From assembly GCA_001003605.1 (NCBI GenBank), contig LCPL01000006.1, positions 1-58,852 of the forward strand: DNA of 58,852 bases. Direction: 5' to 3'. The notes below the pieces were generated by a model that saw only the letters and a program-made list of their open reading frames with translations, did not search any database and was not told the DNA's origin. Position 1 is the stretch's first letter; every line of letters begins with the position of its first letter. A program made the position numbers and the translations under genes. The stretch comes from Parcubacteria group bacterium GW2011_GWC2_48_17. GTDB taxonomy: Bacteria; Patescibacteriota; Minisyncoccia; Phycocordibacterales; UBA10002. Of the stretch, positions 1-58,852 are shown one piece after another.

Positions 1-86
1 AGGACGGGGGTTGTATCCCCCTTAACAAAGGGGGTGTCCGAGTCGGCGAGGACGGGGGTTGTATCCCCCTTAACAAAGGGGTTAGG
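1..86. repeat. Left inverted-repeat arm of DUF559 element (CCCCCTTAACAAAGGGGG words)
   Basis: cccccttaacaaagggggtgtc...gacgggggttgt matches the reverse complement of 441-490. Confidence 0.85.
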
Positions 87-94
87 TAATTGTT

Positions 95-544
95 ATGAAA
101 GTCTACTATAATCAACACCTCAAAGAACTGTCACGGGAACTCAGGAAAAATGGTACTCTTGCTGAAGTCTTGCTATGGAAAGAACTAAGGAACAAGAAGA
201 TGGGCTTTCAATTCATGCGGCAAAAACCGATTTTATTTTACATAGTTGATTTTTATTGTGCTCCGCTCAAACTTGCCGTCGAAGTAGACGGCGTAACGCA
301 TGATGCAAAAATGGAGAAGGATATGAAGCGACAGTGCGCATTGGAAAAGCTTGGAATTGCCTTTCTGCGGTTTTCCGAAGGAGAAGTGCGAAATAATCTT
401 GACGGCGTGTTGCTAAAAATTGCGACGTGGATAAAAGAAAGACAACCCCCGTCGTATCAGAATATGACACCCCCTTTGTTAAGGGGGACACAACCCTCCC
501 CGAATCAGAATTCGGTACTCCCTTTATTAAGGGAGATAAGATAA
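95..544 (+). CDS. DUF559 domain protein (Vsr/PD-(D/E)XK endonuclease-like)
   Basis: LRKNGTLAEVLLWKELRNKKMGFQFMRQKPILFYIVDFYCAPLKLAVEVDG pattern; C-terminus encoded by the right repeat arm. Confidence 0.8.
   Translation: MKVYYNQHLKELSRELRKNGTLAEVLLWKELRNKKMGFQFMRQKPILFYIVDFYCAPLKLAVEVDGVTHDAKMEKDMKRQCALEKLGIAFLRFSEGEVRNNLDGVLLKIATWIKERQPPSYQNMTPPLLRGTQPSPNQNSVLPLLREIR
441..541. repeat. Right inverted-repeat arm of DUF559 element
   Basis: acaacccccgtcg...gacaccccctttgttaaggggg is inverted relative to 1-60; second half-arm ccctttattaaggg. Confidence 0.85.
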
Positions 545-556
545 AGAGAAACACCA

Positions 557-1519
557 ATGACCCCACGAACAAAAATCATTAGCGGAGTAGCGGCAGTCGC
601 CATACTGGGAGGCGGGGTTTTTTTCTTGCGTACCGGGCGCACGGAAATTAAGTATAACAGCATCACTCCGGAGCAGGCCTCAAAAGCGGCGGAGGTGCTT
701 TCTAAAGACCAAGACAATGACGGCCTTAAAGACTGGGAGGAGGAACTTTGGAACACGAATCCCTTAAACAAAGATACAGATGGAGATGGAACGGTAGATG
801 GCGAAGAGATAACCTTGGGGAGGGACCCTGTTAAAGCGGGGCCGGATGATGAACTTGACCAGAAAACCATTGAAGCAAAAACGGTTCCTGGCGGAGGGGA
901 CTGGACCGAAACCGACAGGCTGTCTAGAGAATTTTTCGCGAAATATCTCACAATAAAGCAGTCGGGAGTGCCGTTTACCGCCGAGGAAGAAGAAAAACTT
1001 CTCGCGGATTTCACACAAAGATATCCTGAACCGAGGGCGAAAAAAATCTTCACGGAAAGCGACATCGTGCTTGCGAAGAATGACGACGTAGCGTCTTTGC
1101 GCGCATACGGAAATGCGATTGGGACTGTGATAAACGCGCACAAAGAAAAAGAAGATGTGGAAAACGAGCTTATTATTTTTGAGCGCGCCCTAGAAAATGA
1201 AGACGCGCTGGACCTTCAAAACCTTGACGGCCGCGTCAAGCGCTATGAGAGCATACTTGCGGGTTTCAAAACAATTCCTGCGCCGCGAAACGTCATGTTG
1301 ATACATCTAGACCTTCTAAACTCCATTGAATCGATAAAAGAAAGTGTGGATGGGATGGCGGGTGCGCTCACCGATTCGGTGCGTGCGCTATCCGCGGCAA
1401 CCGCATATCCTGCCGCCATAGAAGATCTGACTAAGGCCCTGGATGATATCGCACGCTTTTTCGAGATGAAGCAAATAACATTTGGGAAAGATGAACCAGG
1501 GGCGATTCTCACGCAGTAG
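557..1519 (+). CDS. Membrane-anchored protein with thrombospondin-type-3/EF-hand-like Ca-binding repeats
   Basis: N-terminal TM; DQDNDGLKDWEEELWNTNPLNKDTDGDGTVDGEEI. Confidence 0.6.
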   Translation: MTPRTKIISGVAAVAILGGGVFFLRTGRTEIKYNSITPEQASKAAEVLSKDQDNDGLKDWEEELWNTNPLNKDTDGDGTVDGEEITLGRDPVKAGPDDELDQKTIEAKTVPGGGDWTETDRLSREFFAKYLTIKQSGVPFTAEEEEKLLADFTQRYPEPRAKKIFTESDIVLAKNDDVASLRAYGNAIGTVINAHKEKEDVENELIIFERALENEDALDLQNLDGRVKRYESILAGFKTIPAPRNVMLIHLDLLNSIESIKESVDGMAGALTDSVRALSAATAYPAAIEDLTKALDDIARFFEMKQITFGKDEPGAILTQ

Positions 1520-1660
1520 CGTCTAGCGGATAGTAGAAAAAGAAATAGATGCATGAAAGCCGAAAACTAAACGCTAGACGCTTCTGCATATGTACATGAA
1601 GTCATAAGATACTCTTGGTTTTTATCCGAAAACTAAACGCTTTACGCTTTACGCTTCTTC
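1517..1660. repeat. GCGTYTAGCG-word inverted-repeat element; internally deleted derivative of the 9249-9724 element
   Basis: agcgtctagcggatagtagaaaaagaaatagatgc and tttttatccgaaaactaaacgc both recur at 9265-9310 and 9675-9700. Confidence 0.8.
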
Positions 1661-1704
1661 CGTGTTATCCACTTTGCGGGCACTGTTTATCCACAAGTCT
1701 CTGC

Positions 1705-1710
1705 TATAAT
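1705..1710 (+). promoter_or_regulatory. Putative -10 box (TATAAT)
   Basis: ctgcTATAATaaagagg about 20 nt upstream of GTG start at 1729; -35 weak. Confidence 0.35.
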
Positions 1711-1728
1711 AAAGAGGATGTGAGAGGA

Positions 1729-7712: not shown

Positions 7713-9251
7713 ATGAACCCACAGCAACAACGAGAAAACTTTTTCCGCTTCATAGACGCCCTGCCGCAGGCAGTGGTGGATTCACTGTCGCAAAAAAATC
7801 TTGATATTATTGCCGTCTTGCACGAAGTTTGCGTGGCGCGCGAGTTTGTTCTCTATGAAATGGGAAACATTTGCGAAGGCGTAGTGCGGGTGCTTGCGGG
7901 GAAAGACTCGCCGAGCAATCTCTTGGCGTTCATCCAGCAAGATCAGAACATAGAGGAAGACAACAGAGCGAAAATTCCCGCACTTGCCTATGAAATCCAG
8001 CAGAAGATTTTTGACCCGGTGCTCCCGATTTTGAAGCAGGCGGGGTTTCCGATTAAAGAAGGAAAGGTGGCGGAGCCAGCTTCTAGCTTTCAGGTTCAAG
8101 GTTCTAGTCAGACAAAACTAGAAGCTAGAAGCCACCTGCCCGCCAAAGGCTTGGCGCAGGCGGGAAACCTAGCAGCTTCTTCTGTTGGACTAGAAGCTAG
8201 CAGCTTGAAGCTAGAACCTAATCATATGCGGGCATTGATGCGCATCGCCGCCGGAACGGCCTATAGCGAATTGCAACTTCGCGACGCTTTCGAGGACTTG
8301 CCTCCGGGCCTTCGCCAATCGCTCTCTTCGGTGGATACGGCAAACTCCATACAGGGAATCGCCAAGAAATATCTTCTCCATGTGGACCAGATGGCTTCTC
8401 TTGCGAGCGAAACCGGGCTTGTGCTTCTCGGACTTACGCACCCGGCGGACTTTATAGGAAATCTTGGAAAGCGCCTTCGTCTTAAAGAAGAGGAGGCGAG
8501 GGAAATCGCGCGCGAAATAAGCGCGGAGATTTTCGTCAAAGTCCGTGATTCGCTACGCGGACTGCACGAACCAAAACCAGCTTCTAGCTTTCAGGTGCTA
8601 GGTTCTAGCCAGAAACCAACCGAGTCCCCAAAGGTAGCGCCTGTATCTTCTTCTCAATCTTCTGCCACACTAAACGCTAAACGCTCAACGCTAACCGCTT
8701 CTTCCCGCTATCCGCTAAACGCTTCCCTTGAAACTCCGTATTCCCCACAAGCCAAGTGGAACACGGGAGAAAATATACTTTCAAAGCAAGCCCCGCAGAA
8801 GCAGGGCGACTTTGCGGGGCAAGCTCCCCAAAAAGAGGCGCCATTAAGCAGGGAAGGAGTATTGCGCGGCGTTGAAAACCCCAAATCAATTAAGAGAGAT
8901 TCTCCCCTAGAAGCTAACAGCTATCAGCTAAAAGCTAATCAGGTGGGGCCGACGGGGTGGAAACCGTCGCAGAATGAAGTAGGAAGTATGAATTATGAAT
9001 TAAGGAAGCCCTCGATTCCAACAGACTTACCAAGACCTCCAGCGCCGAAGCCACCAATCGCGCCGAAGCCATTCCAGCCGTCTGCTCCGGGAGAAAAACG
9101 GAGACCGAGTGATATTGGCCCATTATCTGTGCCGGAAAAACCGACGGACGAACCGAATGACTTTCTTGAAGAGAAATTGCAGCGGCCAGTAACCATGCCG
9201 AAAGAGGAGAAGCATTACTCAAGCGACCCCTATCGGGAACCGCTTGAGTAA
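7713..9251 (+). CDS. Hypothetical protein with several in-frame repeat-derived segments
   Basis: Two PASSFQV(Q/L)GSSQ segments plus LNAKRSTLTASSRYPLNAS, LEANSYQLKANQ and MNYEL encoded by repeat words. Confidence 0.6.
   Translation: MNPQQQRENFFRFIDALPQAVVDSLSQKNLDIIAVLHEVCVAREFVLYEMGNICEGVVRVLAGKDSPSNLLAFIQQDQNIEEDNRAKIPALAYEIQQKIFDPVLPILKQAGFPIKEGKVAEPASSFQVQGSSQTKLEARSHLPAKGLAQAGNLAASSVGLEASSLKLEPNHMRALMRIAAGTAYSELQLRDAFEDLPPGLRQSLSSVDTANSIQGIAKKYLLHVDQMASLASETGLVLLGLTHPADFIGNLGKRLRLKEEEAREIAREISAEIFVKVRDSLRGLHEPKPASSFQVLGSSQKPTESPKVAPVSSSQSSATLNAKRSTLTASSRYPLNASLETPYSPQAKWNTGENILSKQAPQKQGDFAGQAPQKEAPLSREGVLRGVENPKSIKRDSPLEANSYQLKANQVGPTGWKPSQNEVGSMNYELRKPSIPTDLPRPPAPKPPIAPKPFQPSAPGEKRRPSDIGPLSVPEKPTDEPNDFLEEKLQRPVTMPKEEKHYSSDPYREPLE
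8077..8221. repeat. TAGCTTCTAG-word inverted repeat inside a CDS with nested GCCCGCC/GGCGGGC hairpin
   Basis: agcttctagctttcaggttcaaggttctag ... ctagaagctagcagcttgaagctagaacct; cctgcccgccaaaggcttggcgcaggcggg in the middle. Confidence 0.8.
8578..8613. repeat. TAGCTTCTAG-word repeat inside a CDS (single arm)
   Basis: cagcttctagctttcaggtgctaggttctagcc nearly identical to 8077-8111. Confidence 0.75.
8670..8727. repeat. CGCTAAACGC-word repeat inside a CDS
   Basis: ctaaacgctaaacgctcaacgctaaccgcttcttcccgctatccgctaaacgcttc. Confidence 0.8.
8907..8940. repeat. TAGAAGCTAACAGC-word repeat inside a CDS
   Basis: ctagaagctaacagctatcagctaaaagctaatc. Confidence 0.7.
8974..9002. repeat. GAAGTATGAATTATG-word repeat inside a CDS
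   Basis: atgaagtaggaagtatgaattatgaatta. Confidence 0.6.
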
Positions 9252-9340
9252 GCGTTTAGCGATTAGCGTCTAGCGGTTAGTAGAAAAAGAGAAGAAATAG
9301 ATGCCTAATCATTATAACTAAACGTTAGCCGCTAACCACT
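9249..9340. repeat. Left arm of IVP-A element (GCGTTTAGCG words, with internal partial inverse copy)
   Basis: taagcgtttagcgattagcgtctagcggttagtag...ctaaacgttagccgctaacc; overlaps the TAA stop of the upstream CDS. Confidence 0.85.
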
Positions 9341-9348: not shown

Positions 9349-9708
9349 ATGTATGCCAAATCATACAAAGAACTCATTGTCTGGCAAAAATCCATTCAAT
9401 TGGTGAAAGCTGTCTATGCCGTTTCTGAAGGATTTCCTAAAGCGGAAATGTATGGGTTAACTAGCCAGATGCGAAGAGCGGCCGTTTCCATTCCATCAAA
9501 CATCGCGGAGGGATATAAGCGCAAAAGCAGACTTGAATTTCTTCAATTTCTTTCTATTGCCGAAGCTTCTGCCGCAGAACTAGAAACTCAAGTAATAATT
9601 GCGAAAGATTTGTACTCGGAAATAGACTATAGACCAACCGAGCAGTTACTAGAAGAAGTCCAGAAGATATTGGTGATTTTTATCCGAAAACTAAACGCTA
9701 AACGCTAA
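9349..9708 (+). CDS. Four-helix-bundle protein, 23S rRNA intervening-sequence (IVP/S23) family
   Basis: YKELIVWQKSIQLVKAVYAVSEGFPKAEMYGLTSQMRRAAVSIPSNIAEGYKRKS. Confidence 0.9.
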   Translation: MYAKSYKELIVWQKSIQLVKAVYAVSEGFPKAEMYGLTSQMRRAAVSIPSNIAEGYKRKSRLEFLQFLSIAEASAAELETQVIIAKDLYSEIDYRPTEQLLEEVQKILVIFIRKLNAKR

Positions 9709-9724
9709 ACGCTGTACGCTTCCC
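9688..9724. repeat. Right arm of IVP-A element
   Basis: aaactaaacgctaaacgctaaacgctgtacgcttccc, inverse of the 9249 arm; encodes the IVP C-terminus and ends at the PrgI ATG. Confidence 0.85.
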
Positions 9725-10138
9725 ATGCGATTCCAGGTTCCACAATTCATAAACATCGAGGATAAGATTTTCGGCCCACTCACTATACGGCAGTTCGTAT
9801 ATACGGTGGGAGGCGCCGGCATGGTCTATGTAGTCTACAATTTCCTTCCTTTCTACCTTGCCATCTTTATCATCTTGCCGGTCGCGCTTCTCACTCTGGC
9901 GCTGGCTTTCTTCAAACCGAACGGCAAGCCGTTTGTTTTCATGTTACAGTCGGCCATCACTTACGCGTTTTCTAACAGGCTATATATTTGGCGGCGAATG
10001 CCCAAGCAGATGACGCCTAGCGACGCGGTCAAGGAATTTTCCAAGGCGGAAAGCGTTGTGCCTTCTCTTTCGGAGAGCAAGCTAAAGGATTTAACATGGG
10101 CGCTTGATATCAATCAAAACGTCAAGACACGAAAATAA
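9725..10138 (+). CDS. PrgI family protein
   Basis: MRFQVPQFINIEDKIFGPLTIRQFVYTVGGAG...LPFYLAIFIILPVALLTLALAFFKPNGKP. Confidence 0.8.
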   Translation: MRFQVPQFINIEDKIFGPLTIRQFVYTVGGAGMVYVVYNFLPFYLAIFIILPVALLTLALAFFKPNGKPFVFMLQSAITYAFSNRLYIWRRMPKQMTPSDAVKEFSKAESVVPSLSESKLKDLTWALDINQNVKTRK

Positions 10139-10183
10139 ATATACGAAAATACGAATTAAAACCTACGAATTGCTACGAATAAA
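10136..10183. repeat. Left arm of GxxExxY-1 element (TACGAATT words)
   Basis: aaatatacgaaaatacgaattaaaacctacgaattgctacgaataaag. Confidence 0.85.
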
Positions 10184-10186
10184 GCG

Positions 10187-10597
10187 ATGACAAAAAATAA
10201 CAGGACGAGTCTTAAAGTCATTCATCCAGAACTTTCATATACTATTACTGGTATCTGTTTCGCGGTACATAAGGAGCTCGGCCAATACGCGAGAGAAAAA
10301 CAGTACTGCGACCTGCTTGAGGATAAACTTAAGGAGGCAGATATGCCTTTTCAGAGAGAACTGCGTATTGGGGAGAGTGGGAATATCCTTGATTTCTTGA
10401 TTGATAACAAGATTGCTTTTGAGGCAAAAGCGAAAAAAATCCTGTTGCCGGAGGATTATCGACAGATTCAAAATTATCTTCAGATTGCTAACGTACAACT
10501 TGGTCTGTTAGTAAACTTCCGTGCCGAGCATATACTGCCGAAAAGAATTGTGCGCATTGATAGCGAATCGAACAGAAAATCACAAGTTGAGGTATAA
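10187..10597 (+). CDS. GxxExxY protein (PD-(D/E)XK superfamily-like)
   Basis: YTITGICFAVHKELGQYAREKQYCDLLEDKLKEADMPFQRELRI...DFLIDNKIAFEAKAKK. Confidence 0.75.
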   Translation: MTKNNRTSLKVIHPELSYTITGICFAVHKELGQYAREKQYCDLLEDKLKEADMPFQRELRIGESGNILDFLIDNKIAFEAKAKKILLPEDYRQIQNYLQIANVQLGLLVNFRAEHILPKRIVRIDSESNRKSQVEV

Positions 10598-10605
10598 TCT
10601 TAATG

Positions 10606-10652
10606 CCTTATTCGTAGCAATTCGTATATTCGCATAATTCGTATTTTCGTAT
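10606..10652. repeat. Right arm of GxxExxY-1 element
   Basis: cttattcgtagcaattcgtatattcgcataattcgtattttcgtat, near-exact inverse of the 10141 arm. Confidence 0.85.
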
Positions 10653-11301
10653 GCCTGTAGCAGCTAAAGCTTCACAAGACTTCGTAAAGATAAAGGAAAT
10701 CCGTGATGGAATCGTAATCCTCAAGGATGGCGGGCTTCGCGCGATACTTATGACCTCGTCTATTAACTTTGCTTTGAAATCGGAAGAAAATCAGCAAGCG
10801 ATTATTTCTCAATTCCAAAATTTTCTGAATTCCCTCACTTTTTCCGTGGAGATAGTCGTGCAATCCAGGCGTTTTGACATCAAGCCGTATATAACGCTTC
10901 TTGAGGAAAGGGAGCAAAAACAAAAAAACGAGCTTCTACGATTGCAGACGCGCGAGTATATCGGCTTCGTCAAGAAATTTACCGAGAGTACGAATGTCAT
11001 GAATAAAACATTTTTTCTTGTTGTTCCATATTCGCCCGCGATTGTGGAGGTGCGCGCTGTCGGGGAAGGTATTGTTATGAAGGTCAAAGAAGGGTTCGGC
11101 AAAGCGAAACACACGGAAACGGAAAAAACGCATGGGTTTGAAGAGAGCCGCACTCAACTGGAACAGCGCGTGTCTATCGTTGAACAGGGCCTTATAAGGA
11201 CCGGGATACGAGTCGCGCAACTTGGCACTGAAGAGGTGGTGGATGTGTTTTATCAGTTGTTCAATCCGGGTGTGACGGAGAAAACGGTTCAGGAGGTCTA
11301 A
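10651..11301 (+). CDS. T4SS-cluster protein resembling a VirB4/TraC N-terminal region
   Basis: Position directly before VirB4; FVKIKEIRDGIVILKDGGLRAILMTSSINF. Confidence 0.5.
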   Translation: MPVAAKASQDFVKIKEIRDGIVILKDGGLRAILMTSSINFALKSEENQQAIISQFQNFLNSLTFSVEIVVQSRRFDIKPYITLLEEREQKQKNELLRLQTREYIGFVKKFTESTNVMNKTFFLVVPYSPAIVEVRAVGEGIVMKVKEGFGKAKHTETEKTHGFEESRTQLEQRVSIVEQGLIRTGIRVAQLGTEEVVDVFYQLFNPGVTEKTVQEV

Positions 11302-11351
11302 CAGATACCAATCTGCAAATGAATACCAATCTACTAATACCTGCAAATAAG
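11299..11351. repeat. Left arm of GxxExxY-2 element (ACCAATCTG words)
   Basis: taacagataccaatctgcaaatgaataccaatctactaatacctgcaaataag. Confidence 0.85.
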
Positions 11352-11735
11352 AAGCAAGAAACTGAACTCTTATATCCAGAGCTTTCATTTGATGTCGTCG
11401 GCCTCTGTTACACGGTACACAATGAACTTGACCGATTCGCCAAAGAAAAACAATATGGGGATTGTCTGGAAGAAAGATTGAAGGAAAAAGGCATGTCTTA
11501 TATTCGAGAGCTTAGAATTGGAAATACAAACAATATCGCTGACTTCTTAGTAGACAACAAAATCATTCTGGAACTTAAGTCGAAAAGATTTCTTTTGCGG
11601 GAAGACTACCTTCAAACACAGCGCTACCTTCAGGCAACTAGCATGAAATTAGGTATTCTAGTCAACTTCTCTGGGAAATACGCGCGTACCCACAGGATAG
11701 TGAGAATTGAATACTCCAGTAGAAAGCCCGACTAG
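11319..11735 (+). CDS. GxxExxY protein (second copy)
   Basis: LSFDVVGLCYTVHNELDRFAKEKQYGDCLEERLKEKGMSYIRELRI...DFLVDNKIILELKSKR. Confidence 0.75.
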   Translation: MNTNLLIPANKKQETELLYPELSFDVVGLCYTVHNELDRFAKEKQYGDCLEERLKEKGMSYIRELRIGNTNNIADFLVDNKIILELKSKRFLLREDYLQTQRYLQATSMKLGILVNFSGKYARTHRIVRIEYSSRKPD

Positions 11736-11788
11736 AGGATTAGTAGGTATTTGTAGATTGGAATAGATTAGTATTATTGGTATCTGTT
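11735..11788. repeat. Right arm of GxxExxY-2 element
   Basis: gaggattagtaggtatttgtagattggaatagattagtattattggtatctgtt, inverse of 11299-11351; ends at the VirB4 ATG. Confidence 0.85.
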
Positions 11789-14700
11789 ATGAGTTTTCTA
11801 GACCTATTCAAAAAAAAGCGGGGGGGGAAGGACATCACGGAGTTTTTGCCGGAGGAGATATACCAATCCGGCACGCTTGAACTCCAAGATGTGATAGCGC
11901 CATCCGCGCTCAAGGTACTGCCGAACTCCCTCAATGTGAGCGGCAAGCTCACAAGAACTTTTTTTGTGATTTCATATCCGCGGTTTCTCTCCGAGGGCTG
12001 GTTCGCCCCAATTATCAACCTGGACAAAGTCTTTGACATCAGTATTTTTGTGCATCCGGTCGACACCGGGAAGATTCTCCGTCAATTTGAGAAAAAAGTG
12101 GCGGAGGTGCAGAGTCAGATAGCTGACCGGGAGAAAAAAGGCATGGTGCGCGACCCGGTTCTTGAAACGGCGCATCAGGACCTCGAGAAACTTAGAGATG
12201 ATTTGATTCAGGCGCAGGAAAAGCTTTTTGACGTGGGGATTTATATCACAATCTACGCGTCGACGGAAGATGAGATGGACAAGACAGAAAGCGAGGTGAA
12301 ATCGATTTTGGAAAGTAAACTCGTTATTGTTAAACCAGCACTCTTCCAGCAGGAACAAGGGTTTAGGAGCACGACACCGCTCGGAAACGATGAACTTTTG
12401 GCGCACACAAAGCTCAATTCCTCGCCTCTCTCGAGCGTGTTCCCGTTTCTGTCATTCGACCTTACTTCAAACAAAGGAATCCTGTATGGGGTAAACAGGC
12501 ATAACGCCTCGCTCGTTTTATTTGATAGGTTTAGTCTTGAGAACTACAACTCAATTACGCTCGCTAAGTCAGGTTCGGGCAAATCCCTTTTGGGACATGA
12601 GCCTGTGCTGGTACGAAAAAGCGGGAGTGTTTCGCTTCGACCGATTGGCGACATCGTCGAAGAGACAATTCAGGAGAGGGGTGCTATGCATATCGACCAT
12701 GAATTGGAGGGCGTCATTGACCCTGGACTCGAAGTCTGGAGCTTTAACAAAGCAATGCGGGGGGAGTGGAGCAGAGTGACAGTTGCGGCAAGAAAGGACG
12801 CCCCGAAAGAATTGTACCGATTCAAAACTCGAAGCGGGCGTGTTGTGGAAACTACCGGCGACCATAACATGCTCCTCCTGCGTAATGGTGAAATCGTCGC
12901 GGCAAAAAGTGCAAACGTGTCTTTGGGAGAATATGTACCTATGCCACGAGAGGTGAAACAAGATGCCGCCCCCATGCTCACGCTCAATCTCTTTGAGCTT
13001 ATGGCGGATTCTGGCGTCTATGTTTCCGGAGCCGGAGAACTTATCGCTAAACATCGGCATATACTGGAAACGAAGGAACTTGACGCACGCTTTGACAAAT
13101 ATCTCTACAAATACGCGGCGGGACGGCGTATACCCATTTCTTATTTTCTGAAGATACTTGCCCGACTCGTTATCAAAACGACGGACGCGAGAGTGTCGAA
13201 ATGCCTCATCACGTCGGCAAGCGGAACTGAAAGATTGCTGGCGTTCTATATCGTAGAGTCTGCACTCGCAAAGACTCTTGGTTATTTGGCCTCAGAGGGA
13301 ACGATAGGACAAAAAGTCGCGAGCATAAGCAACACTGATCCCGTTGTAATACAAGATATCTGCAATGCGCTCTTATCTTTAAAAGTACAGTATTTCAAAA
13401 CGCTGAAAAGCGTAGTCATAAGTGATGTTGTATTCGTGAAATTTCTCGCGGTTATCGACATGAGGGAAAAATCTGCCACCAAACGAATTCCAGCCATTAT
13501 TTTTGAGAGTAGCAAAGACGCACAGGCATCATTTCTCGCCGCGTATTTCGAAGGAGATGGTGGCGTTGACGGACCTGTGGTTACGACCGTTTCAAAATCC
13601 AAGATGCTTATTTCCGATATAAGTTATCTGCTGTACTTTTTTGGTATTAGAAGCAGAGTAGCAGTGCGCCAAAAAATGATTCCCGGAAAATCGAAGGCCG
13701 ATTATCATTTGCTCACTATATCGGGGCAGGCTAATCTGGAACGATTTAAAAGCAGGATCGGCTTTGTATCGAAAAGAAAAAACAAGCTTTTATCGGGGCT
13801 CAAGCGTGCGGAAAATACGAATGTTGACGTTATTCCTGGATTGGCCACCTTATTCCGGGAAGTTGACGCGCTTCTTGGCAAGGCTATGCGTGGGCGGCGA
13901 AACTGGAGTCCTTTAAAGCGTGGTGTATTTAACCCGTCACCTCGGGAGTTGCGGCGAGTGGTCTTTGAAATCCGCGAGGTACTACGGGAGATTGAATCCA
14001 AACGATGCTTGTTTGAAACGCTCGCGAGACTACCGCGCGTAGAGGACATAGTCAGGACGGCAGAGCAGAGTAAGGCGGTCAATTCAGCGCTTTGGAAGGA
14101 ACTCGGTTCAAGTTGGGCGACGATGAAAAACGGAATGATTCCGGGAATAGTCAATGCGCGTCGCGCTCTTCAATGCATGGGTGTTCTCTTGCCAGAAACA
14201 GCAGAGGTCAGGTCAACGATTAGCGCGGGGTTTGCATTTTTAGGCGAGCCGATGAAGCATTATAATCCTTCTCTTCGCTCGGCGCTCTATGTCAGTCAGG
14301 AGGCTGATACTTCTTATGAAATGTTGGCGCAAGCCGCAGGCTTCATTGCCGCGCGTTATCGTTCGCTTTGCGGAAACATCCCTAGAGTACAAGAAATACT
14401 CGCGCGACTTGAACGGCTTGCAGAGGCTGACCTTGCCTGGGACGAAATCGTGGTGATTGAACCGTTCCAAAACGAGCGCGAGCGCTATGTCTATGATTTG
14501 ACGGTTGACAATGAAGTGTTTCTTGCGGGATATGGCGGCATGTTCGTGCATAATTCATATATGTCAAAGCTTGAGATTCTGCGGTCACTCATGTTTGGAA
14601 CGGATGTGCTTGTCATTGACCCTGAAAGGGAATACGAATACCTAGCGGAAGCGGCGGGAGGAAAATATTTCAATATCTCTCTCAATTCACCCCACCATAT

Positions 14701-15580
14701 CAATCCATTTGAGCTCGCGGCTCCGCGAGAAGACGAGTCAGCGGATGATGTTTTGCGGTCAAATATCGTCAATCTTGTCGGACTTTTTAGGATACTTCTT
14801 GGCGGCCTAACGCCGGAAGAAGACGGAATTGTTGACCTTGCTATAACGGAAACATACGCTCTCAAAGACATAACTCCCGAATCTGACTTCTCAAAAATAG
14901 ATTCTCCGCTGCTCTCTGATTTTGAACTTGTGCTAGCGGGGATAGAAGGCGGGGAGTCTCTCGTACAGCGCCTCTCCAAATACACGCGCGGCACATGGGC
15001 GGGGTTCATCAATCAACCGTCAAATATTGATATAAACTCGAACTTCATTGTCTTTTCGCTTCGAGATATGGAAGATGAGCTGAAGCCGGCGGCAATGTAT
15101 ATAATCATGCACTTCATATGGAACGCCATTAGAAAGGAACTCAAAAAGCGCATAATGCTCATTGACGAGGCCTGGTGGATGATGAAGTCCGAGGACACGG
15201 CTTCTTTCCTCCTAGGACTCGCGAAGCGGGGGCGCAAATATTTCTTGGGGCTGTCAACCATAACGCAAGATGTCGACGATTTTTTAAAGTCGCCATACGG
15301 ACTCCCTATTCTGACCAACTCCTCCATGCAGGTGCTCCTCAAGCAGTCTCAAACCGTCATTGACAAGCTTCAGCAAATTTTTGACCTTACCGACGAGGAG
15401 AAGTATCTGCTTCTGGAATCGGATGTCGGCGAGGGACTCTTTTTCGTCGGGATAAAGCATGTCGCCATCAAGGTTATCGCTTCGTATACCGAAGACCAGA
15501 TTATCACCTCCGACCCGTCGCAGTTGCTTTCTATCAAAGCGGCGAAAGAGGAGCTGAAGGCGGCCGAAGGCACTAGCTAG
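11777..15580 (+). CDS. virB4: VirB4-family T4SS ATPase containing an intein; CDS start probably ATG at 11789
   Basis: Extein LAKSGSGK/SYMSKLEILRSLMFGTDVLVIDPEREYEYLAEAAGG; LIDEAWWMMKSE; TQDVDDFLKSPYG. Confidence 0.85.
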   Translation: MVSVMSFLDLFKKKRGGKDITEFLPEEIYQSGTLELQDVIAPSALKVLPNSLNVSGKLTRTFFVISYPRFLSEGWFAPIINLDKVFDISIFVHPVDTGKILRQFEKKVAEVQSQIADREKKGMVRDPVLETAHQDLEKLRDDLIQAQEKLFDVGIYITIYASTEDEMDKTESEVKSILESKLVIVKPALFQQEQGFRSTTPLGNDELLAHTKLNSSPLSSVFPFLSFDLTSNKGILYGVNRHNASLVLFDRFSLENYNSITLAKSGSGKSLLGHEPVLVRKSGSVSLRPIGDIVEETIQERGAMHIDHELEGVIDPGLEVWSFNKAMRGEWSRVTVAARKDAPKELYRFKTRSGRVVETTGDHNMLLLRNGEIVAAKSANVSLGEYVPMPREVKQDAAPMLTLNLFELMADSGVYVSGAGELIAKHRHILETKELDARFDKYLYKYAAGRRIPISYFLKILARLVIKTTDARVSKCLITSASGTERLLAFYIVESALAKTLGYLASEGTIGQKVASISNTDPVVIQDICNALLSLKVQYFKTLKSVVISDVVFVKFLAVIDMREKSATKRIPAIIFESSKDAQASFLAAYFEGDGGVDGPVVTTVSKSKMLISDISYLLYFFGIRSRVAVRQKMIPGKSKADYHLLTISGQANLERFKSRIGFVSKRKNKLLSGLKRAENTNVDVIPGLATLFREVDALLGKAMRGRRNWSPLKRGVFNPSPRELRRVVFEIREVLREIESKRCLFETLARLPRVEDIVRTAEQSKAVNSALWKELGSSWATMKNGMIPGIVNARRALQCMGVLLPETAEVRSTISAGFAFLGEPMKHYNPSLRSALYVSQEADTSYEMLAQAAGFIAARYRSLCGNIPRVQEILARLERLAEADLAWDEIVVIEPFQNERERYVYDLTVDNEVFLAGYGGMFVHNSYMSKLEILRSLMFGTDVLVIDPEREYEYLAEAAGGKYFNISLNSPHHINPFELAAPREDESADDVLRSNIVNLVGLFRILLGGLTPEEDGIVDLAITETYALKDITPESDFSKIDSPLLSDFELVLAGIEGGESLVQRLSKYTRGTWAGFINQPSNIDINSNFIVFSLRDMEDELKPAAMYIIMHFIWNAIRKELKKRIMLIDEAWWMMKSEDTASFLLGLAKRGRKYFLGLSTITQDVDDFLKSPYGLPILTNSSMQVLLKQSQTVIDKLQQIFDLTDEEKYLLLESDVGEGLFFVGIKHVAIKVIASYTEDQIITSDPSQLLSIKAAKEELKAAEGTS
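12584..14554 (+). mobile_element. Intein (~657 aa) with LAGLIDADG-type endonuclease region, inserted between K and S of Walker A
   Basis: N-terminus SLLGHEPVLVRKSGS; endonuclease-like LGYLASEGTI and AAYFEGDGGVD; C-terminus NEVFLAGYGGMFVHN|S. Confidence 0.88.
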
Positions 15581-15674
15581 CGTTTAGCGTGTAGCGTGTA
15601 GCGGTTAGTTCAGATGAGGATTTCTTGGGCTTTCTTTTCATACTAAACGCTATACGCTAATCGCTAAACGCTTC
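15578..15674. repeat. GCGTTTAGCG/CGCTAAACGC inverted-repeat element without passenger gene
   Basis: tagcgtttagcgtgtagcgtgtagcggttag ... ctaaacgctatacgctaatcgctaaacgcttc; left arm starts at the VirB4 TAG stop. Confidence 0.85.
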
Positions 15675-16501: not shown

Positions 16502-17506
16502 GTGCATTATAAACTTGCTGCGTTTGCGTTTCTCGCACTCATCTCGCTCGGAGCGCAGAGTCTTTTCGCGCAAACCGGAACAGCAGGAACCGAACTTTCC
16601 ATGATGGTATTTCCAGAGCATCCTCGGCCTGGAGACGCGATAGTCGTGTCCGTGGAGAGTTACAATATAGACCTCAACCGCGCGGATATGCGTTGGTTTA
16701 TAAACAACAAGCTCGTGAAGGCCGGGGTCGGTGAAAAAAGTCTTGAAACTGTCGCCTCGCGTGCGGGAGAGTTTATGGAAATCCGCGTCGCGGCGCTTGG
16801 AGAAAATGGCAGTGTTTATTCAGCGAGCATCTCATTCCGCCCGGCGGAGGTCAACCTCTTGTGGCAAACGGAAAGCTACACTCCGCCGTTCTACAAAGGA
16901 AAGGCGCTCATGCCGTATCAGGGCACGGTGCTTGTCGCGGCCGTTCCGTCCTTTACGAGAGGAGGGAGAGTTATGTCTTCAGAATCTCTTATCTACACAT
17001 GGAAAGAAGGGGATGATGTGATAGGCGATTCTTCAGGAAAAGGAAAGAGCTTGTTCGTCTTCCGCGGCAGTGTGCCGATTAGAGCCAAGACTATTTCGGT
17101 CCTCGTAGAGAGTCCTGACCGCACTATGGCCGCGGAGGCTTCAGTGGATATTGTGCCTGTCGCTCCACGCCTGCTTTTCTACGAGGAACATCCGCTCTAT
17201 GGCCTCCTTCTCTCGAAGGCGCTTATAGGAAACTTTCTCCTGAAAGGAGACGAGACTCGCATTAGCGCACTTCCGTTTTATTTTGAAACCGACACAAAGT
17301 CGAATAAAGACATCCTGTATGACTGGCAGTTGAATTATCAGGAGCTCCCGAATGAAAGAGGCCCGGCCTTGACGCTTCGCCGTATCGTAGAGACCGCTGG
17401 AAAGTCAAATCTTTTTCTTGAAGCGAGGAGCGCTGATGAGAACAAATTATTCCAGACCGCGGAGGAAAGACTTACAATTGAGTTTCCAGAGAAGAGTAGC
17501 TTCTAG
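16502..17506 (+). CDS. Secreted Ig-like/adhesion-type protein of the T4SS-like cluster
   Basis: GTG start with signal peptide MHYKLAAFAFLALISLGAQSLFAQ; TATACTATA promoter-like sequence just upstream. Confidence 0.55.
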   Translation: MHYKLAAFAFLALISLGAQSLFAQTGTAGTELSMMVFPEHPRPGDAIVVSVESYNIDLNRADMRWFINNKLVKAGVGEKSLETVASRAGEFMEIRVAALGENGSVYSASISFRPAEVNLLWQTESYTPPFYKGKALMPYQGTVLVAAVPSFTRGGRVMSSESLIYTWKEGDDVIGDSSGKGKSLFVFRGSVPIRAKTISVLVESPDRTMAAEASVDIVPVAPRLLFYEEHPLYGLLLSKALIGNFLLKGDETRISALPFYFETDTKSNKDILYDWQLNYQELPNERGPALTLRRIVETAGKSNLFLEARSADENKLFQTAEERLTIEFPEKSSF

Positions 17507-17715
17507 CTTTTAGGTTCTAGCTTCTAGCAATAAATCCAGCTTTTAGCTTCTAGGTTTTAGCTTCTAGTAAGAAGAAAATAACTATGAGCGCGCCAATCGC
17601 CAAATCATACAAAGACTTCCATGTTCTCGTACGGAGAGGTGGAAGATCTCTTCACCGAAGTTATGAAGATGCTCCATGTCCTTATCTCCAAACTAGAAGC
17701 TAAAAGCTAGAACCT
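17504..17715. repeat. TAGCTTCTAG-word inverted-repeat element containing a decayed IVP gene
   Basis: tagcttctagcttttaggttctag...ctagaagctaaaagctagaacct; interior ccaaatcatacaaagactt matches the IVP-A start. Confidence 0.8.
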
Positions 17716-19077
17716 ATGAAGCACGCATTTATCATCTACACTCTAGCCATTGTGGCCGTCCTCTCGGCAATGTGGGTAACTCCGCCGCCTGTTTACGCTG
17801 CCAATGTGAATTATGTTCCGCTCGCGCCGATTGATGTACCGGGCTCCGAGTTTACCTCAAAAGCATTCGACGAGCGGACTCCTGGGGCAGGGACTTCCGA
17901 ATGCCAAGCCCCAACCTGTTTCCCAAAGTACCTTCGCACAATTTACAACATTGGAATAGTTTTGGCGGGGCTTTTTGCCGTAGTTTCTATTGTGCGCGGC
18001 GGTTTTACGCTTATGTTCACCGATTCAATACTCGGGCACAGCGAAGGTAAAGGTATCATATTGCGCGCGCTCGGCGGACTTGTCATCGTTTATTCCTCCT
18101 ACATCTTAATGAACATGATTAACCCCGCGCTCGGCCGCGACCTTGACCTCGCGCTCCAGTTCCCGCGCGTTACCATCAGAACATGTAGCCAGCTGACGTC
18201 GCAAGAAGCGAGAGATAGGCCCGACTGTGGGGAGCTTAGTGTAATAGCAATGTCGCAGTATCAACATGATCTTTTAAGGAAGGCAGAGGTTGCAAACGGC
18301 GAATGGCGAGATAGAGAACTGGCAAGACTTGACAAGGAAATAGAAGATTTGCAGACAGAACTTGGAAGAATACCAAACGATGACGAGCACCTTGAAGAGC
18401 GCAACATTGTTAGCGGACTGCTAGCAATAAAACGAGCTGATCGCGCGGCACTACTGCGTGAAGGGACTGTGCGAGGCGCTGAAAACAAGACTGCCAAACT
18501 TTCTGAATTAGCGATTACGGAGGAAGAGTTTAACCGCCGCATCAGAGAAATCACACAAGGCACACAAGGCGGTGAGCCATCCGAGATAGCCAAGGCCCGC
18601 GCTGCATTTCAAACAATGATTGACACTGCACCGCTTTCGCCGTCGCAAATTGCTCAACTCAGAACTATGGAAGCTGACAGAATTACATCAATACAGAGAG
18701 GGGTGGCGCAGGCAGTTCTAGATAGGCCGCCAAAAAGTAGTGCTCTTGGCTTTGAAGTTGAAGACTGGATTGCAGTTGAAAAACAAGTCAGCGAGCAAAT
18801 CAAAGCAATTAGCGCAGAGCAAGGACGAATAATCCAGGAGTTGACCACTATAAAAAATAGTGCGGCCGATGCTGCTAACTCGTTGCTCGTAGCCGAGATA
18901 ACTAGCCGGGAGAAGACGGTGTGGGCCCAGACCTGTAACAACATTGCGCTGATTGCCAACCATTGCAAAGCGTTAAAATCTGAAGTTTTTAGAAAAACTC
19001 AGCATCCTCTAACGTGCGATGCTGTCCCTGCGGACATTAAAACACCGTGCATTGCTAATGGCGGCACAAAATTCTAA
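17716..19077 (+). CDS. Pilin-like/TrbC-VirB2-type membrane protein with coiled-coil extension
   Basis: Signal peptide, two TM segments (IGIVLAGLFAVVSIVRGGFTLMF; ALGGLVIVYSSYILMNMI). Confidence 0.45.
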   Translation: MKHAFIIYTLAIVAVLSAMWVTPPPVYAANVNYVPLAPIDVPGSEFTSKAFDERTPGAGTSECQAPTCFPKYLRTIYNIGIVLAGLFAVVSIVRGGFTLMFTDSILGHSEGKGIILRALGGLVIVYSSYILMNMINPALGRDLDLALQFPRVTIRTCSQLTSQEARDRPDCGELSVIAMSQYQHDLLRKAEVANGEWRDRELARLDKEIEDLQTELGRIPNDDEHLEERNIVSGLLAIKRADRAALLREGTVRGAENKTAKLSELAITEEEFNRRIREITQGTQGGEPSEIAKARAAFQTMIDTAPLSPSQIAQLRTMEADRITSIQRGVAQAVLDRPPKSSALGFEVEDWIAVEKQVSEQIKAISAEQGRIIQELTTIKNSAADAANSLLVAEITSREKTVWAQTCNNIALIANHCKALKSEVFRKTQHPLTCDAVPADIKTPCIANGGTKF

Positions 19078-21105: not shown

Positions 21106-22308
21106 ATGTCCCGCAAAACCAAAACCATCATAGCTGTCGCCGTAGTTCTCTTGCTTATAGCGCTTGGTGTTTTCTTGTATTTTCTGTGGAATAAGAAGCC
21201 GGTTTCGCCCGACTTGGGTGGCACATTCCCTCCACCGACAGATGAAATCGCTCCGGAGGAAAAACCTCCGGTAACGCTCCCAGAAGAAGTCGCGGGGCCA
21301 TTTGAGCCGATACTGCGCCAGCTTTCCAAAGTGCCGATAGCAGGAGCCGTGCTCGGAGTAAAAAGCGGCGAGGCCGTCGTGCGCTATCAGGAACGCGCCA
21401 CGGGAAATATATATGAAATCGGGGCGGCGGGAGAGGGAGAGAAACGGCTTACGAATACTACGATTCCGAAAGTTTATGAAGCGCTTTGGAGCAAAACAGG
21501 CACCGAGCTTGTTTCCCGCTACGTTCGCGAGAATAGCGAGATAATCGAGTCCTTTTCGGCACGAGTCATTCCTGAATCGTCAGGAAAAGAAGGCGAGCTT
21601 CAGGGTGTATTTTTGCCTCGAGATATTTCAAGCGCCGCGATAGCGCCGGATGGAAAGAAGGTTTTCTATTTGCAAGGGGAGAACGGCGGAGCATCCGGCA
21701 TACAGAGCGACCTTTCCGGCAACGGAAAAACGAAGATTTGGGCATCTCCCGTCCGTGAATGGCTGGTGTCATGGCCGGCGGCAAACAAAATCGCGATTTT
21801 ATCAAAGCCCTCCGGTTTTGCTTCAGGAATGCTCATTTCGCTTGACCCTCTAAGCGGAGCGAGAACGCTTGTTCTACGGAATATCCCCGGACTCACGGCT
21901 CTTATGAACCCAGCTAAATCGCTGACGCTGTATTCGGCGAGCAGTGAATCGAACATTTCGCTCCACATGCTAGACACAGCAACTGGAAGAAATAGCACCG
22001 TTCGCACTACAACATTTCCGGAAAAATGCGTATGGAGCAAAAATGGGGAAAGCTTTTACTGCGGCGTTCCAAAGATAATTCCGCCGGGAACATACCCTGA
22101 CGTGTGGTACCAAGGAGTTATCGCGTTTGAAGACGAAGTATGGGGCATCACTCCTTCGTCTGGAGTAACGGATCGCGTGCTTGACATAAGCGGGAAGCGC
22201 GGAATCCCGATTGACCTTATAAACCCGGAGGTAAGTCCTGATGAAAAATTCCTCATCTTTACGGACAAAGAAAGCGGCACGCTGTGGAGTTTGCAGATGA
22301 AGCCGTAA
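21106..22308 (+). CDS. Membrane-anchored beta-propeller-like protein
   Basis: N-terminal TM; WD40-like strands (SPDEKFLIFTDKESGTLWSLQ). Confidence 0.5.
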   Translation: MSRKTKTIIAVAVVLLLIALGVFLYFLWNKKPVSPDLGGTFPPPTDEIAPEEKPPVTLPEEVAGPFEPILRQLSKVPIAGAVLGVKSGEAVVRYQERATGNIYEIGAAGEGEKRLTNTTIPKVYEALWSKTGTELVSRYVRENSEIIESFSARVIPESSGKEGELQGVFLPRDISSAAIAPDGKKVFYLQGENGGASGIQSDLSGNGKTKIWASPVREWLVSWPAANKIAILSKPSGFASGMLISLDPLSGARTLVLRNIPGLTALMNPAKSLTLYSASSESNISLHMLDTATGRNSTVRTTTFPEKCVWSKNGESFYCGVPKIIPPGTYPDVWYQGVIAFEDEVWGITPSSGVTDRVLDISGKRGIPIDLINPEVSPDEKFLIFTDKESGTLWSLQMKP

Positions 22309-22374
22309 GGCGTATAACGCAAAACGTGTAGCGTTAGCGGAAGAAAAGACTTGGCGTATAACGGGTAACGCACA
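22306..22374. repeat. Left arm of IVP-B1 element (GCGTRTAACG words)
   Basis: taaggcgtataacgcaaaacgtgtagcgttagcgg...ggcgtataacgggtaacgc; TAA stop of upstream CDS lies in the repeat. Confidence 0.8.
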
Positions 22375-22734
22375 ATGGAAAACAAAACCTACCACGAGGA
22401 GTTAAAACAATTGATGAATGAGTACGTACAGAAAGTATATATATGCACTAAGAAGTTCCCGATGGAAGAGATATTCGGTGTAACCTCACAACTGCGGCGA
22501 GCCGCATTATCGGTTGTCTTAAACTACATTGAAGGATACGCGAGACAGCGAAAAGAAGTGTTGCGAAATTTTATCGAAATATCATACGGCTCTCTCAAGG
22601 AAAGCGGTTATTTAATTTGGTTCTCAAAAACTCAACAATACTTAAGCGAATCAGACTGCAAAGACCTTACCGCGCTCGGAGACAGAATTGGAAAAATGCT
22701 TTGGGGGATTCTGATGGGACTTAAGAAGAAATAG
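22375..22734 (+). CDS. Four-helix-bundle (IVP/S23) protein B1
   Basis: FPMEEIFGVTSQLRRAALSVVLNYIEGYARQRKEVLRNFIEISYGSLKES. Confidence 0.88.
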   Translation: MENKTYHEELKQLMNEYVQKVYICTKKFPMEEIFGVTSQLRRAALSVVLNYIEGYARQRKEVLRNFIEISYGSLKESGYLIWFSKTQQYLSESDCKDLTALGDRIGKMLWGILMGLKKK

Positions 22735-22737
22735 TTT

Positions 22738-22772
22738 TTCGTTACACGCTTCACGATACACGTTACACGCTG
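22738..22772. repeat. Right arm of IVP-B1 element
   Basis: ttcgttacacgcttcacgatacacgttacacgctg; contains the stop codon of the convergent jag-like gene. Confidence 0.8.
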
Positions 22773-23289: not shown

Positions 23290-23472
23290 ATCCTAAATCC
23301 GAATATCGAAATCCGAAACAATATCTTGCGAAACTTCCAAAACACAAACCGACAAAAACCCAAACAAAACACAAATATTCCAAACCTATCAAACATCCCG
23401 TCTATACTTTGCCTTGTTTGTGAACTGTGTTTTGTTTGGCATTTTGGATACTGTGCTTTGTGTTTTAAGAAG
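23290..23472. repeat. CAAAACACAAA-word inverted-repeat element
   Basis: aaaacacaaaccgacaaaaacccaaacaaaacacaaat...gtttgtgaactgtgttttgtttggcattttggatactgtgctttgtgtttt. Confidence 0.8.
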
Positions 23473-23494
23473 ATGCTTCGTGCTTCGAATTTTG

Positions 23495-24243: not shown

Positions 24244-24420
24244 CCAAAATGAGGAAAGCACAAAGTTCAGACAGACATACCAAAGCACAGTATCCAAAGG
24301 CCAAACAAAAACACCAAAACACAGTTCACAAAAATCCAAACGGACTGCATATTTGGTTTGTGCTTTGAAAAAGTCTGTGCCTTGTTTGGTTTTTTGTGCG
24401 GTTTGTGTTTTGGGCCTTCG
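24244..24420. repeat. CAAAACACAAA-word inverted-repeat element (second copy, between yidC and rnpA)
   Basis: gaaagcacaaagttcagacagacataccaaagcacagtatccaaaggccaaacaaaaacacc...tttggtttgtgctttgaaaaagtctgtgccttgtttggttttttgtgcggtttgtgttttggg. Confidence 0.8.
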
Positions 24421-24423
24421 CAA

Positions 24424-25017: not shown

Positions 25018-25019
25018 AG

Positions 25020-40433: not shown

Positions 40434-40534
40434 ATGAATTATGAAGTATGAATACTGAATTATGGTACAAGAATATGGATTCTCCCTTCCTCCCATAATT
40501 CATAATTCCTTATTCATTATTCAAGTGGGTATGG
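40434..40534. repeat. GAATTATGAAGT-word inverted-repeat element (copy 2)
   Basis: gaattatgaagtatgaatactgaattatgg...cccataattcataattccttattcattattcaagtgggta. Confidence 0.85.
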
Positions 40535-45010: not shown

Positions 45011-45174
45011 GGACTTACGCAATTGGTGTCATTCCCGTGAAGCTTGTCCTCGCGAAGGCGGGGAACGGGAATCTAGGGCGTTAAGAAACGGCCAAATACT
45101 GGATTCCCGCCCCCGCCTCCGCTGGGGGCAGGCCCTACGCGGGAATGACAGAAAAGGACGAAATGCGTAAGTCC
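45011..45174. mobile_element. 164-bp MITE-like element with ~9-bp imperfect target duplication
   Basis: TIR GGACTTACGCA / TGCGTAAGTCC; flanks TGCTGTGTA and TGCTGTGGA; core gtcattcccg...cgggaatgac. Confidence 0.75.
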
Positions 45175-45215
45175 TGCTGTGGATAACAAATTTCCCAAAT
45201 CCTATCAACTGTAAC

Positions 45216-51979: not shown

Positions 51980-52150
51980 AGAGGAAAACACAAAACACAA
52001 ACTGCACAAAAATCCAAACAAAACACAAACTATCCAAAACACAAACTAGTCCTTGATATTTCTGACTTTTGCCGTATGTCCGTTTGGCTTTTTGTGTACT
52101 GTGCTTTGGTACATTTGTTTGGACACCGGATACTGTGCTTTGTCTTTAAC
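51980..52150. repeat. CAAAACACAAA-word inverted-repeat element (third copy)
   Basis: aaaacacaaaacacaaactgcacaaaaatccaaacaaaacacaaactatccaaaacacaaac...ccgtttggctttttgtgtactgtgctttggtacatttgtttggacaccggatactgtgctttgt. Confidence 0.8.
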
Positions 52151-52733: not shown

Positions 52734-52742
52734 CTTACAAGA

Positions 52743-58115: not shown

Positions 58116-58192
58116 AACAGAACCATTATACCTCATTTTCTTGCGTTATTTTTGCTTTCTTGTTATGGTGTTTGGGTCTTCAAGCTGACACG

Positions 58193-58229
58193 TTACTAAA
58201 CGCTATACGCTAATCGCTATACGCTTCTT
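58193..58229. repeat. CGCTAAACGC-word arm ending at rpsT ATG
   Basis: ctaaacgctatacgctaatcgctatacgcttcttac. Confidence 0.75.
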
Positions 58230-58232
58230 ACA

Positions 58233-58496
58233 ATGGCCATCACATCTTCAGCAAAAAAAGCTCACCGAAGCTCCGAGAGGAAGCGAGTGTTTAATCAGCG
58301 CCGAAAGCAGGCCGTTGAACAGATAGTAAAGAAAATCAAGAAACTTCTCGTAGAGAAAAAGGTGAAGGAGGCGCAGAAACTTATTCCGGAGGCCTATAAG
58401 GCTTTCGATAAAGCGTCCAAAGAGCATACAATACGGAAAGGCGCCGCTGACCGAAAAAAATCACGGCTTACTCTGCTCATTGCGCGAACCAAATAA
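58233..58496 (+). CDS. rpsT: 30S ribosomal protein S20
   Basis: MAITSSAKKAHRSSERKRVFNQRRKQAV...KAFDKASKEHTIRKGAADRKKSRLTLLI. Confidence 0.93.
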   Translation: MAITSSAKKAHRSSERKRVFNQRRKQAVEQIVKKIKKLLVEKKVKEAQKLIPEAYKAFDKASKEHTIRKGAADRKKSRLTLLIARTK

Positions 58497-58510
58497 TCAA
58501 CTGACAAATT

Positions 58511-58543
58511 GCACAAAAATCACCCCATGGGGTGTTTTTTGTT
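58511..58543 (+). terminator. Intrinsic terminator after rpsT
   Basis: gcacaaaaatcaccccatggggtgttttttgt. Confidence 0.8.
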
Positions 58544-58597
58544 TCTTATGTGTTTATTAAACCATATCAGAACCTATTTTCAAAACAAATAGTCGGT

Positions 58598-58825
58598 ACA
58601 TTCCGCAGGGCTTGCAAAGCAAGAGGGCGGAAATGTGCTACATCAAGCGAACGGCTCAAATGGGAAGAAATGAGCCGTTCAAGAAAAATGGACTCGGTTT
58701 TGCGAAACTATTTTGCGGGAGGGAGGATTCGCAAAACCGAGACTAATGTTTTTGAAATTCGGCAGGGTTTGGGTTTCCGCCCCGCAGGAGGGCGCGGGAG
58801 GAATGTGGGGCGGATTCTTTTTGGG
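58598..58825. repeat. Four consecutive strong hairpins
   Basis: ACATTCCGC..GCGGAAATGT; GAACGGCTCA..TGAGCCGTTC; CTCGGTTTTGCGAA..TTCGCAAAACCGAG; TCCGCCCC..GGGGCGGA. Confidence 0.8.
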
Positions 58826-58852
58826 AAAGGTTGGGAAGATTAGAAATTTCTA

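Follow-up and report, generated by a model that had tools for sequence, protein, structure and literature searches.

What is to be made of a stretch of DNA in which the spacers between genes are repeatedly filled by short words, given first in tandem and then once more in inverse orientation, sometimes with a single small gene in between? The stretch considered here (the window, 58,852 nucleotides) is contig C6 of the 1.03-Mb, 29-contig patescibacterial genome of Parcubacteria group bacterium GW2011_GWC2_48_17 (G000), nearly the whole of which we scanned. A first-pass annotation of the window, made from its letters alone, had proposed a network of inverted word arrays with interchangeable passenger genes. 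We conclude, with a probability of roughly three in four, that these are small selfish elements which reside at gene junctions, whose protein recognises the element's own word arrays, and whose gene-less copies are derivatives. A complete element would consist of two inverted arms, each of about 4-5 degenerate copies of one word, placed around one gene for a protein of about 120 amino acids which belongs to the IVP/S23, GxxExxY (PDDEXK_3) or DUF559 family.

The association of these gene families with matching arms carries much of this reading. We regarded arms as matching at a score of at least 14, the genome median being 9 and the 95th percentile 13. By this measure, matching inverted arms were found at 12 of the 13 passenger genes of the genome (ten IVP, two GxxExxY and one DUF559), all six in the window included. 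In the genus, 34 of 36 IVP/S23 genes had such arms, while arm pairs combined from mismatched loci matched in only 4.2% of cases (Fisher p=7e-41). The result was similar in other families of the order (23 of 29 IVP genes, vs 10% mismatched) and in a sample of 80 IVP loci from about 20 phyla, including Bacteroidota, Acidobacteria, Planctomycetes, Clostridia, Geobacter, Omnitrophota and several candidate phyla (69 of 80, vs 5.2% mismatched). Random intervals of the same length from the IVP loci reached the threshold in 1-3% of cases, and period 7 was present in 28-41% of IVP flanks vs 1-3% of control windows, with other lags near zero. Matching arms were also present at 9 of 13 DUF559 loci (random, 1.7%) and at 14 of 17 stand-alone GxxExxY loci of the genus (random, 5.5%). 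It had been considered at the outset that passenger genes might occur equally often without matching arms, but they are rarely found without them. The scope first envisaged, Patescibacteria, is also too narrow, as the IVP type is distributed bacteria-wide.

The arrays themselves are a conspicuous property of the genome. At lag 7 we counted 136 islands genome-wide, as opposed to 3-9 at lags 4-6, 8-13 and 15-20, and the harmonics of lag 7 stood out as well (46 islands at lag 14 and 20 at lag 21). Under looser settings there were 226 lag-7 islands, 158 of them lying between genes, even though coding sequence accounts for 77% of the genome; lag 8 gave 19. Many of the arrays form hairpins that occupy the spacer between genes of the same operon, ribosomal-protein genes included. 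A hairpin score of at least 15 was reached in 137 of 371 codirectional spacers of 45-330 nt and in none of their shuffled copies. Within the window, 20 of 44 noncoding segments contain a hairpin of this score or a period-7/8 array (mean in shuffled segments, 0.4), and the first count of at least 25 spacers is about right once arms split by a passenger and arrays within coding sequences are included. Dispersed repeats occupy about 6% of the genome (65 kb), the word-array families reaching up to 68 segments. Chance or low complexity as a cause of the arrays is ruled out by the lag comparison, the shuffles, the mismatched arms and the random intervals. One word, TAGCG, has 82 copies in this genome but only 0-6 in each of 379 others from the phylum, and we rejected it as a general marker. 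Vocabularies are lineage-specific.

The six arm-enclosed genes of the window were first described as three IVP, two GxxExxY and one DUF559, and both the families and the arms proved correct in each case. The IVP-A element has a left arm of TAGCGNN words at 9236-9281, overlapping the stop codon of the gene at 7713-9251, a passenger of the IVP/S23 four-helix-bundle family at 9349-9708 (plus strand; TIGR02436, E=3.4e-36) and a right arm with the word CTAAACG at 9690-9734. In GxxExxY element 1, the left arm (10141-10185, TACGAAT words) lies 2 nt past the stop codon of a PrgI-like gene, the PDDEXK_3 passenger occupies 10187-10597 (plus strand), and the right arm (10605-10652) terminates in the ATG of the gene at 10651-11301. 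The left arm of GxxExxY element 2 (11299-11348, TAACAGATACCAAT...) opens with the TAA stop of that same gene and includes the ATG of its own passenger (11319-11735, plus strand), and the right arm (11739-11789) adjoins the start codon of a VirB4-like gene. The IVP-B1 element consists of a left arm of GTATAACG words at 22304-22325, an IVP/S23 passenger at 22375-22734 (plus strand) and a right arm at 22734-22755; in IVP-B2, whose DNA is 70% identical to that of IVP-B1, the IVP/S23 passenger at 34039-34398 (minus strand) lies between an arm of GTGTAACG at 34009-34029 and another arm at 34433-34453. The two IVP-B copies do share a word of the GTGTAACG type, as had been noticed; their arm scores of 14-15 are weak alone, yet above the 95th percentile of the genome. 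In the DUF559 element, the left arm of CCCCCTTAACAAAGGGGG units (8-62) is 85% complementary to the right arm (442-496), which the 3' end of the passenger, a member of a PD-(D/E)XK-type nuclease family (95-544, plus strand; PF04480, E=8.8e-31), overlaps. A word of 7-10 nt had been expected in all arms; this needs correction for DUF559, since the palindromic unit CCCCCTTAACAAAGGGGG is about 18 nt long.

If the arms belong to the proteins, then words should differ by protein family, and this is what we observe. IVP words vary by locus, with a common form NAGNNNN, that is one AG per 7 bases, read from the outside inwards. This polarity is evident from the strand asymmetry of IVP arms (AG 1096 vs CT 373; 101 loci vs 15), and AG is spaced by 7, 14, 21 and 28. 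Strict period 7 is confined to the IVP class, as GxxExxY words are spaced mostly by 6, 8 and 10 and are of the TACGAAT type, at least two ACGAAT being present in 14 of 25 GxxExxY vs 2 of 29 IVP flanks (p=9e-5). Units of CCCCTT..AAGGGG make up the DUF559 arms across the order, this class being present at 9 of 13 loci. The median number of detectable words per arm is 4.4. Among non-syntenic pairs, moreover, IVP protein identity is correlated with word similarity (Mantel rho 0.36, with 0 of 500 permutations as high), a correlation which is absent in the opposite orientation and which bears out the early impression that related passengers share a vocabulary. The proteins are also under selection, since their alignments keep invariant residues: E, Y, D, K and Q in 40 of 40 GxxExxY sequences, including the D and K expected for PD-(D/E)XK nucleases, Q, N, E and E in 137 of 137 IVPs, and D, E and D in 13 of 13 DUF559 proteins. 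One might still suppose that replication slippage produced the arrays, which would then be immobile, a 7-nt simple-sequence expansion of the kind discussed for long simple sequence repeats and for the heptanucleotide repeats of cyanobacteria, among which the passengers merely happen to lie. The words are degenerate and fast-evolving, and in many genomes simple repeats most often have a period of 7, for which an origin in polymerase slippage has been proposed (PMC4679880). Slippage, however, does not predict inverted matching words flanking one gene family in 20 phyla, nor the inward AG polarity, nor family-specific vocabularies, nor gene-less copies that match a neighbouring passenger element (see below). 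We therefore disfavour it and consider it very improbable.

It is also conceivable that the functional unit is base-paired RNA, the transcribed spacers having stems cut by RNase III, as in the intervening sequences (IVSs) of 23S rRNA. The hairpins fold strongly and their stems juxtapose a stop and a start codon, and RNase III cuts the IVS of Coxiella, which has both S23p and heptamers (PMC4990558). If pairing were specially maintained, the two arms of one copy should be more complementary to each other than to those of other copies. They are not in the TAGCG group (own-arm 17.2 vs other-copy 16.1), nor in the CAAAACACAAA group (22.6 vs 26.5), and only the TACGAAT group has an own-arm excess (21.5 vs 14.9). 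As the arms of one copy are not specially complementary, the words look more like arrays for recognition by a protein than like an RNA stem, and we regard the RNA explanation as unlikely. The first-pass annotation had joined two ideas here, and they fare differently. The link to IVSs is strengthened, because the Coxiella 23S IVS carries tandem heptamers (GACAGAT) next to the S23p gene, in a number that varies between strains (PMC4990558), whereas the IVS-like RNA basis is unsupported or unproven, given the arm comparison above. The elements resemble the 23S IVSs of Coxiella, Leptospira and others in having terminal inverted repeats able to form a stem, in scattered presence, in the Coxiella heptamers and, for the IVP type but not the GxxExxY and DUF559 types, in an S23/IVP-family reading frame inside. 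They differ in that they lie between protein genes and not in 23S helix 9, 25 or 45 (no rRNA was found in the 79 IVP loci scanned, nor in the window), and in having gene-less copies, many vocabularies and sister types of nuclease families. The origin of the 23S IVSs has been described as unclear (PMC4990558).

Selfish elements should change their occupancy between relatives, and comparison of orthologous junctions indicates that these do. In G006 and in outgroups of the order, the rpsQ-rplN and rplN-rplX junctions are short, while in G000, G004, G005, G008 and G012 they contain hairpins of differing vocabularies. Three successive junctions (D-E, E-F and F-VirB4) of the window's type IV secretion operon were compared in five species. 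Junction D-E holds an IVP in G000, an unrelated IVP in G001 and gene-less hairpins in G003, G005 and G006; junction E-F holds GxxExxY in G000, G003 and G006 and IVP in G001 and G005; junction F-VirB4 holds GxxExxY in four species and a gene-less hairpin in G006. Passengers are thus interchangeable, as had been suggested, in the sense that different families occupy one and the same junction. Nor do orthologous spacers always carry the same arms, an outcome that would have refuted the proposal: empty or differently occupied ones exist. From sequence, the pattern is what autonomous and non-autonomous copies would resemble. These same junctions bear on the idea that the arms are operators or attenuators through which the small protein regulates its own operon, so that the network would be regulatory and not mobile DNA. 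The cognate relation of protein and word, the location at operon junctions and the codirectional genes would all fit such a role. TRAP binds spaced repeats on RNA as a ring, and a TRAP-like ring on spaced AG repeats would suit a pentamer. But the vocabulary of one junction differs between sister species, even at ribosomal-protein junctions, one junction may hold different passengers or none, and dozens of copies lie near unrelated genes. We find it quite improbable that regulation is the whole explanation, though binding and mobility are not mutually exclusive. The type IV secretion operon and an ABC-transporter gene junction are recurrent sites, but many others are occupied as well. GxxExxY elements of four families of the order (L203, L211, L217 and L218) lie at apparently one ABC-transporter gene junction, which appears to be either a recurrent insertion site or the seat of very old residents.

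The gene-less copies can be related to elements with genes. The gene-less hairpins of G003, G005 and G006 in the secretion operon agree at 80-93% with the passenger element at a neighbouring junction of the same genome, above most between-species comparisons of the orthologous junction, which give about 65-80%. Throughout G000, 183 spacer hairpins were compared with the passengers of the genus; 89 of them share a passenger's words, where about 2 would be expected, and 23 correspond to IVPs found only in sister species. These matches, together with the resemblance to neighbouring elements, support the proposal that passenger-free copies are derivatives, although local gene conversion between copies may be an alternative source of the similarity. 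The orientation of gene-less hairpins relative to host genes is 39:36, with no bias, but this count is uninformative because an inverted structure cannot show orientation. A further explanation is that an unrelated transposase, RAYT-like or from an insertion sequence, mobilises arms and gene-less hairpins, the small genes being cargo. IVPs have no catalytic motif, which would suit cargo, and TnpA-REP/RAYT is believed to act in trans in mobilising REP (repetitive extragenic palindromic) and REPIN hairpins (PMC3116915, PMC8266576). The window does contain a conventional insertion sequence (32165-33175), with a DDE transposase at 32240-33046 and 20-bp inverted ends of its own at 32165-32184 and 33156-33175; these ends, however, bear no relation to the word arrays. 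If the small genes were cargo, one would not anticipate family-specific word classes and a protein-word correlation, and a single transposase could hardly serve about ten vocabularies. We consider this explanation rather improbable.

The selfish-element reading also accounts for how such insertions could be tolerated. The stop codon of the preceding gene lies within the left arm or at most 10 nt ahead of it in about 80% of IVP loci, and in roughly half to two thirds the right arm ends at most 10 nt from the next start codon. The typical GxxExxY element can be written as TAA-CATACGAAT...ATTCGTATG, the last ATG being the start of the next gene. Passengers share the direction of the host operon in 11 of 11 codirectional spacers. 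Insertion would thus be tolerated because the element spans the interval from stop to start, often provides the stop itself and carries a gene that runs the same way as the operon; a TAG-containing word at period 7 provides stops in all frames.

Several observations weigh against this reading. About half of the G000 spacer hairpins match no known passenger. No consistent target-site duplication was seen at the stop/start junctions, where relatives are too diverged for exact boundaries, and no excision footprint was identified. GxxExxY domains fused within larger proteins (L192, L194 and L195) showed no arms, and one IVP gene of G000 (C21:6999-7301, L007), possibly decayed or domesticated, is the only one in that genome without clear arms (score 12). 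IVP gene count is moderately correlated with array density (rho 0.47, n=34 genomes), and the genomes compared are metagenome-assembled. Finally, IVPs have no known catalytic activity by which their elements could be moved. As regards copy number, the contig ends at 1-99 and 58513-58611 coincide with repeats that recur unchanged at the ends of contigs C9 and C14, and since the assembly breaks at repeats, the numbers of element copies may be underestimates.

Gene-less elements are spread over the entire window. Hairpins of TAGCGNN words lie at 1513-1587, at the stop codon of the gene at 557-1519, and at 15579-15672, at the stop of the VirB4-like gene, and one of TAGCTTC words lies at 17497-17716. 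Elements of the CAAAACACAAA vocabulary are present at 23306-23488, 24281-24423 and 51989-52143; the first belongs to a group of 68 segments in the genome, which has IVP-bearing relatives in the sister species G008 and G012. An ACACG/GTAACG element at 24978-25098 belongs to a family of 15 segments, an AATATCG element lies at 28047-28194, and GAATTATGAAGT hairpins lie at 30815-30954 and 40435-40523. The claim that elements also enter coding regions is borne out by five in-frame word arrays at 8078-9004 (plus strand; TAGCTTC twice, CTAAACG, AGCTAAC and GAAGTATGAATT), which lie inside the low-complexity linker of the reading frame at 7713-9251; in its 512-aa protein, four vocabularies are represented. 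New disordered protein sequence may have word arrays as one of its sources. These in-frame arrays resemble the Rickettsia palindromic elements, palindromic repeats which are tolerated within coding sequence. The latter, however, are sequence families and are not known to have word arrays or a passenger gene.

Two other features of the window deserve mention. The VirB4/TraG-like ATPase (11789-15580) is split by an intein with a LAGLIDADG domain; this segment is present in the G001 orthologue and absent from those of G003, G005 and G006, and because only some species have it, the intein is a mobile one, and the operon around it is already full of selfish elements. A separate palindromic family at 35639-35788 and 45018-45175 (TGTCATTCCCGCG..., some copies ending in AGGACTTACGC) has 8 copies in the genome and is not built of heptamers.

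Among known systems, the cyanobacterial short tandemly repeated repetitive (STRR) heptanucleotides, the heptamer hairpins of the Nostoc tRNA-Leu intron and the TAACTGA repeats of Beggiatoaceae are likewise 7-nt repeats between genes, whether degenerate or exact, and some of them form hairpins. To our knowledge, no passenger gene or cognate protein has been described for any of them. In Nostoc paludosum (L283), TTCAAACT-like words flank an IVP gene, below our threshold, which suggests that cyanobacterial heptanucleotide repeats are worth testing for linkage to IVPs. The TAACTGA repeats are direct and of one word (PMC4679880). Like the REPIN/RAYT (TnpA-REP) system, the elements combine many short intergenic palindromes with a few gene-bearing copies that share the flanking sequence; unlike it, their arms are arrays of 7-nt words, in several independent vocabularies per genome. 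The passengers belong to PF05635, PF13366 and PF04480, and none is a Y1 (HUH) transposase, no genome-wide search for Y1 having been made. Classical insertion sequences and miniature inverted-repeat transposable elements have a fixed inverted-repeat sequence, whereas here the ends are degenerate word arrays of many vocabularies. A likeness to homing endonuclease elements may be drawn for the GxxExxY and DUF559 nuclease passengers, which, judging from their sequences, keep the active-site residues, but not for the IVP type, which has none. IVP is distantly homologous to the Avd protein of diversity-generating retroelements (NCBIfam DivGenRetAVD, E about 1e-4 to 2e-6). A link of IVP to reverse transcriptase (RT) through this homology was rejected: RT genes are present in 10 of 13 genomes of the genus, but G002, G005 and G009 have several IVP genes and no RT hit.

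How might such elements work? The encoded protein would recognise the word arrays of its own element, and the element, as the comparison of junctions indicates, spreads to other stop/start junctions within the genome and between species. Copies without a gene persist as hairpins and would be moved, or kept alike, by proteins acting in trans. A nuclease could come from GxxExxY and DUF559, but probably not from IVP. IVP relatives of solved structure have five chains per entry (2gsc, 2rld), and the Xanthomonas protein has been described as a pentamer (PMC4990558). By analogy, a ring binding about five spaced words in the manner of TRAP is an attractive, though unproven, picture for IVP. Taken to its fullest, this would amount to a new class of mobile element, in which a ring-forming, non-transposase IVP/S23 pentamer recognises arrays of about five 7-nt words at both ends, in a TRAP-like manner, and moves or copies the element, along with derivatives that lack the gene, to stop/start junctions in most phyla of bacteria. 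Parallel systems with words of their own would exist for two nuclease families, and the ribosomal IVS would be a by-product. We offer this extended proposal tentatively, as somewhat more doubtful than an even bet.

A search of an open-access library, which did not extend to subscription journals, turned up no earlier account of word arrays at IVP, GxxExxY or DUF559 genes. The arms and the gene-less copies point to a widespread and largely undescribed selfish element that includes the inserts of rRNA genes, the classical 23S IVS with its S23 protein possibly being one special case. S23/IVP and GxxExxY are commonly annotated families whose function is not known, and the word arrays offer them a candidate ligand and a role, in a protein-word relation that is testable in vitro. 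A simple rule for annotation follows, which is to seek matching word arms around IVP, GxxExxY and DUF559 genes, and many of the puzzling intergenic hairpins of compact genomes would be explained by word-array elements.

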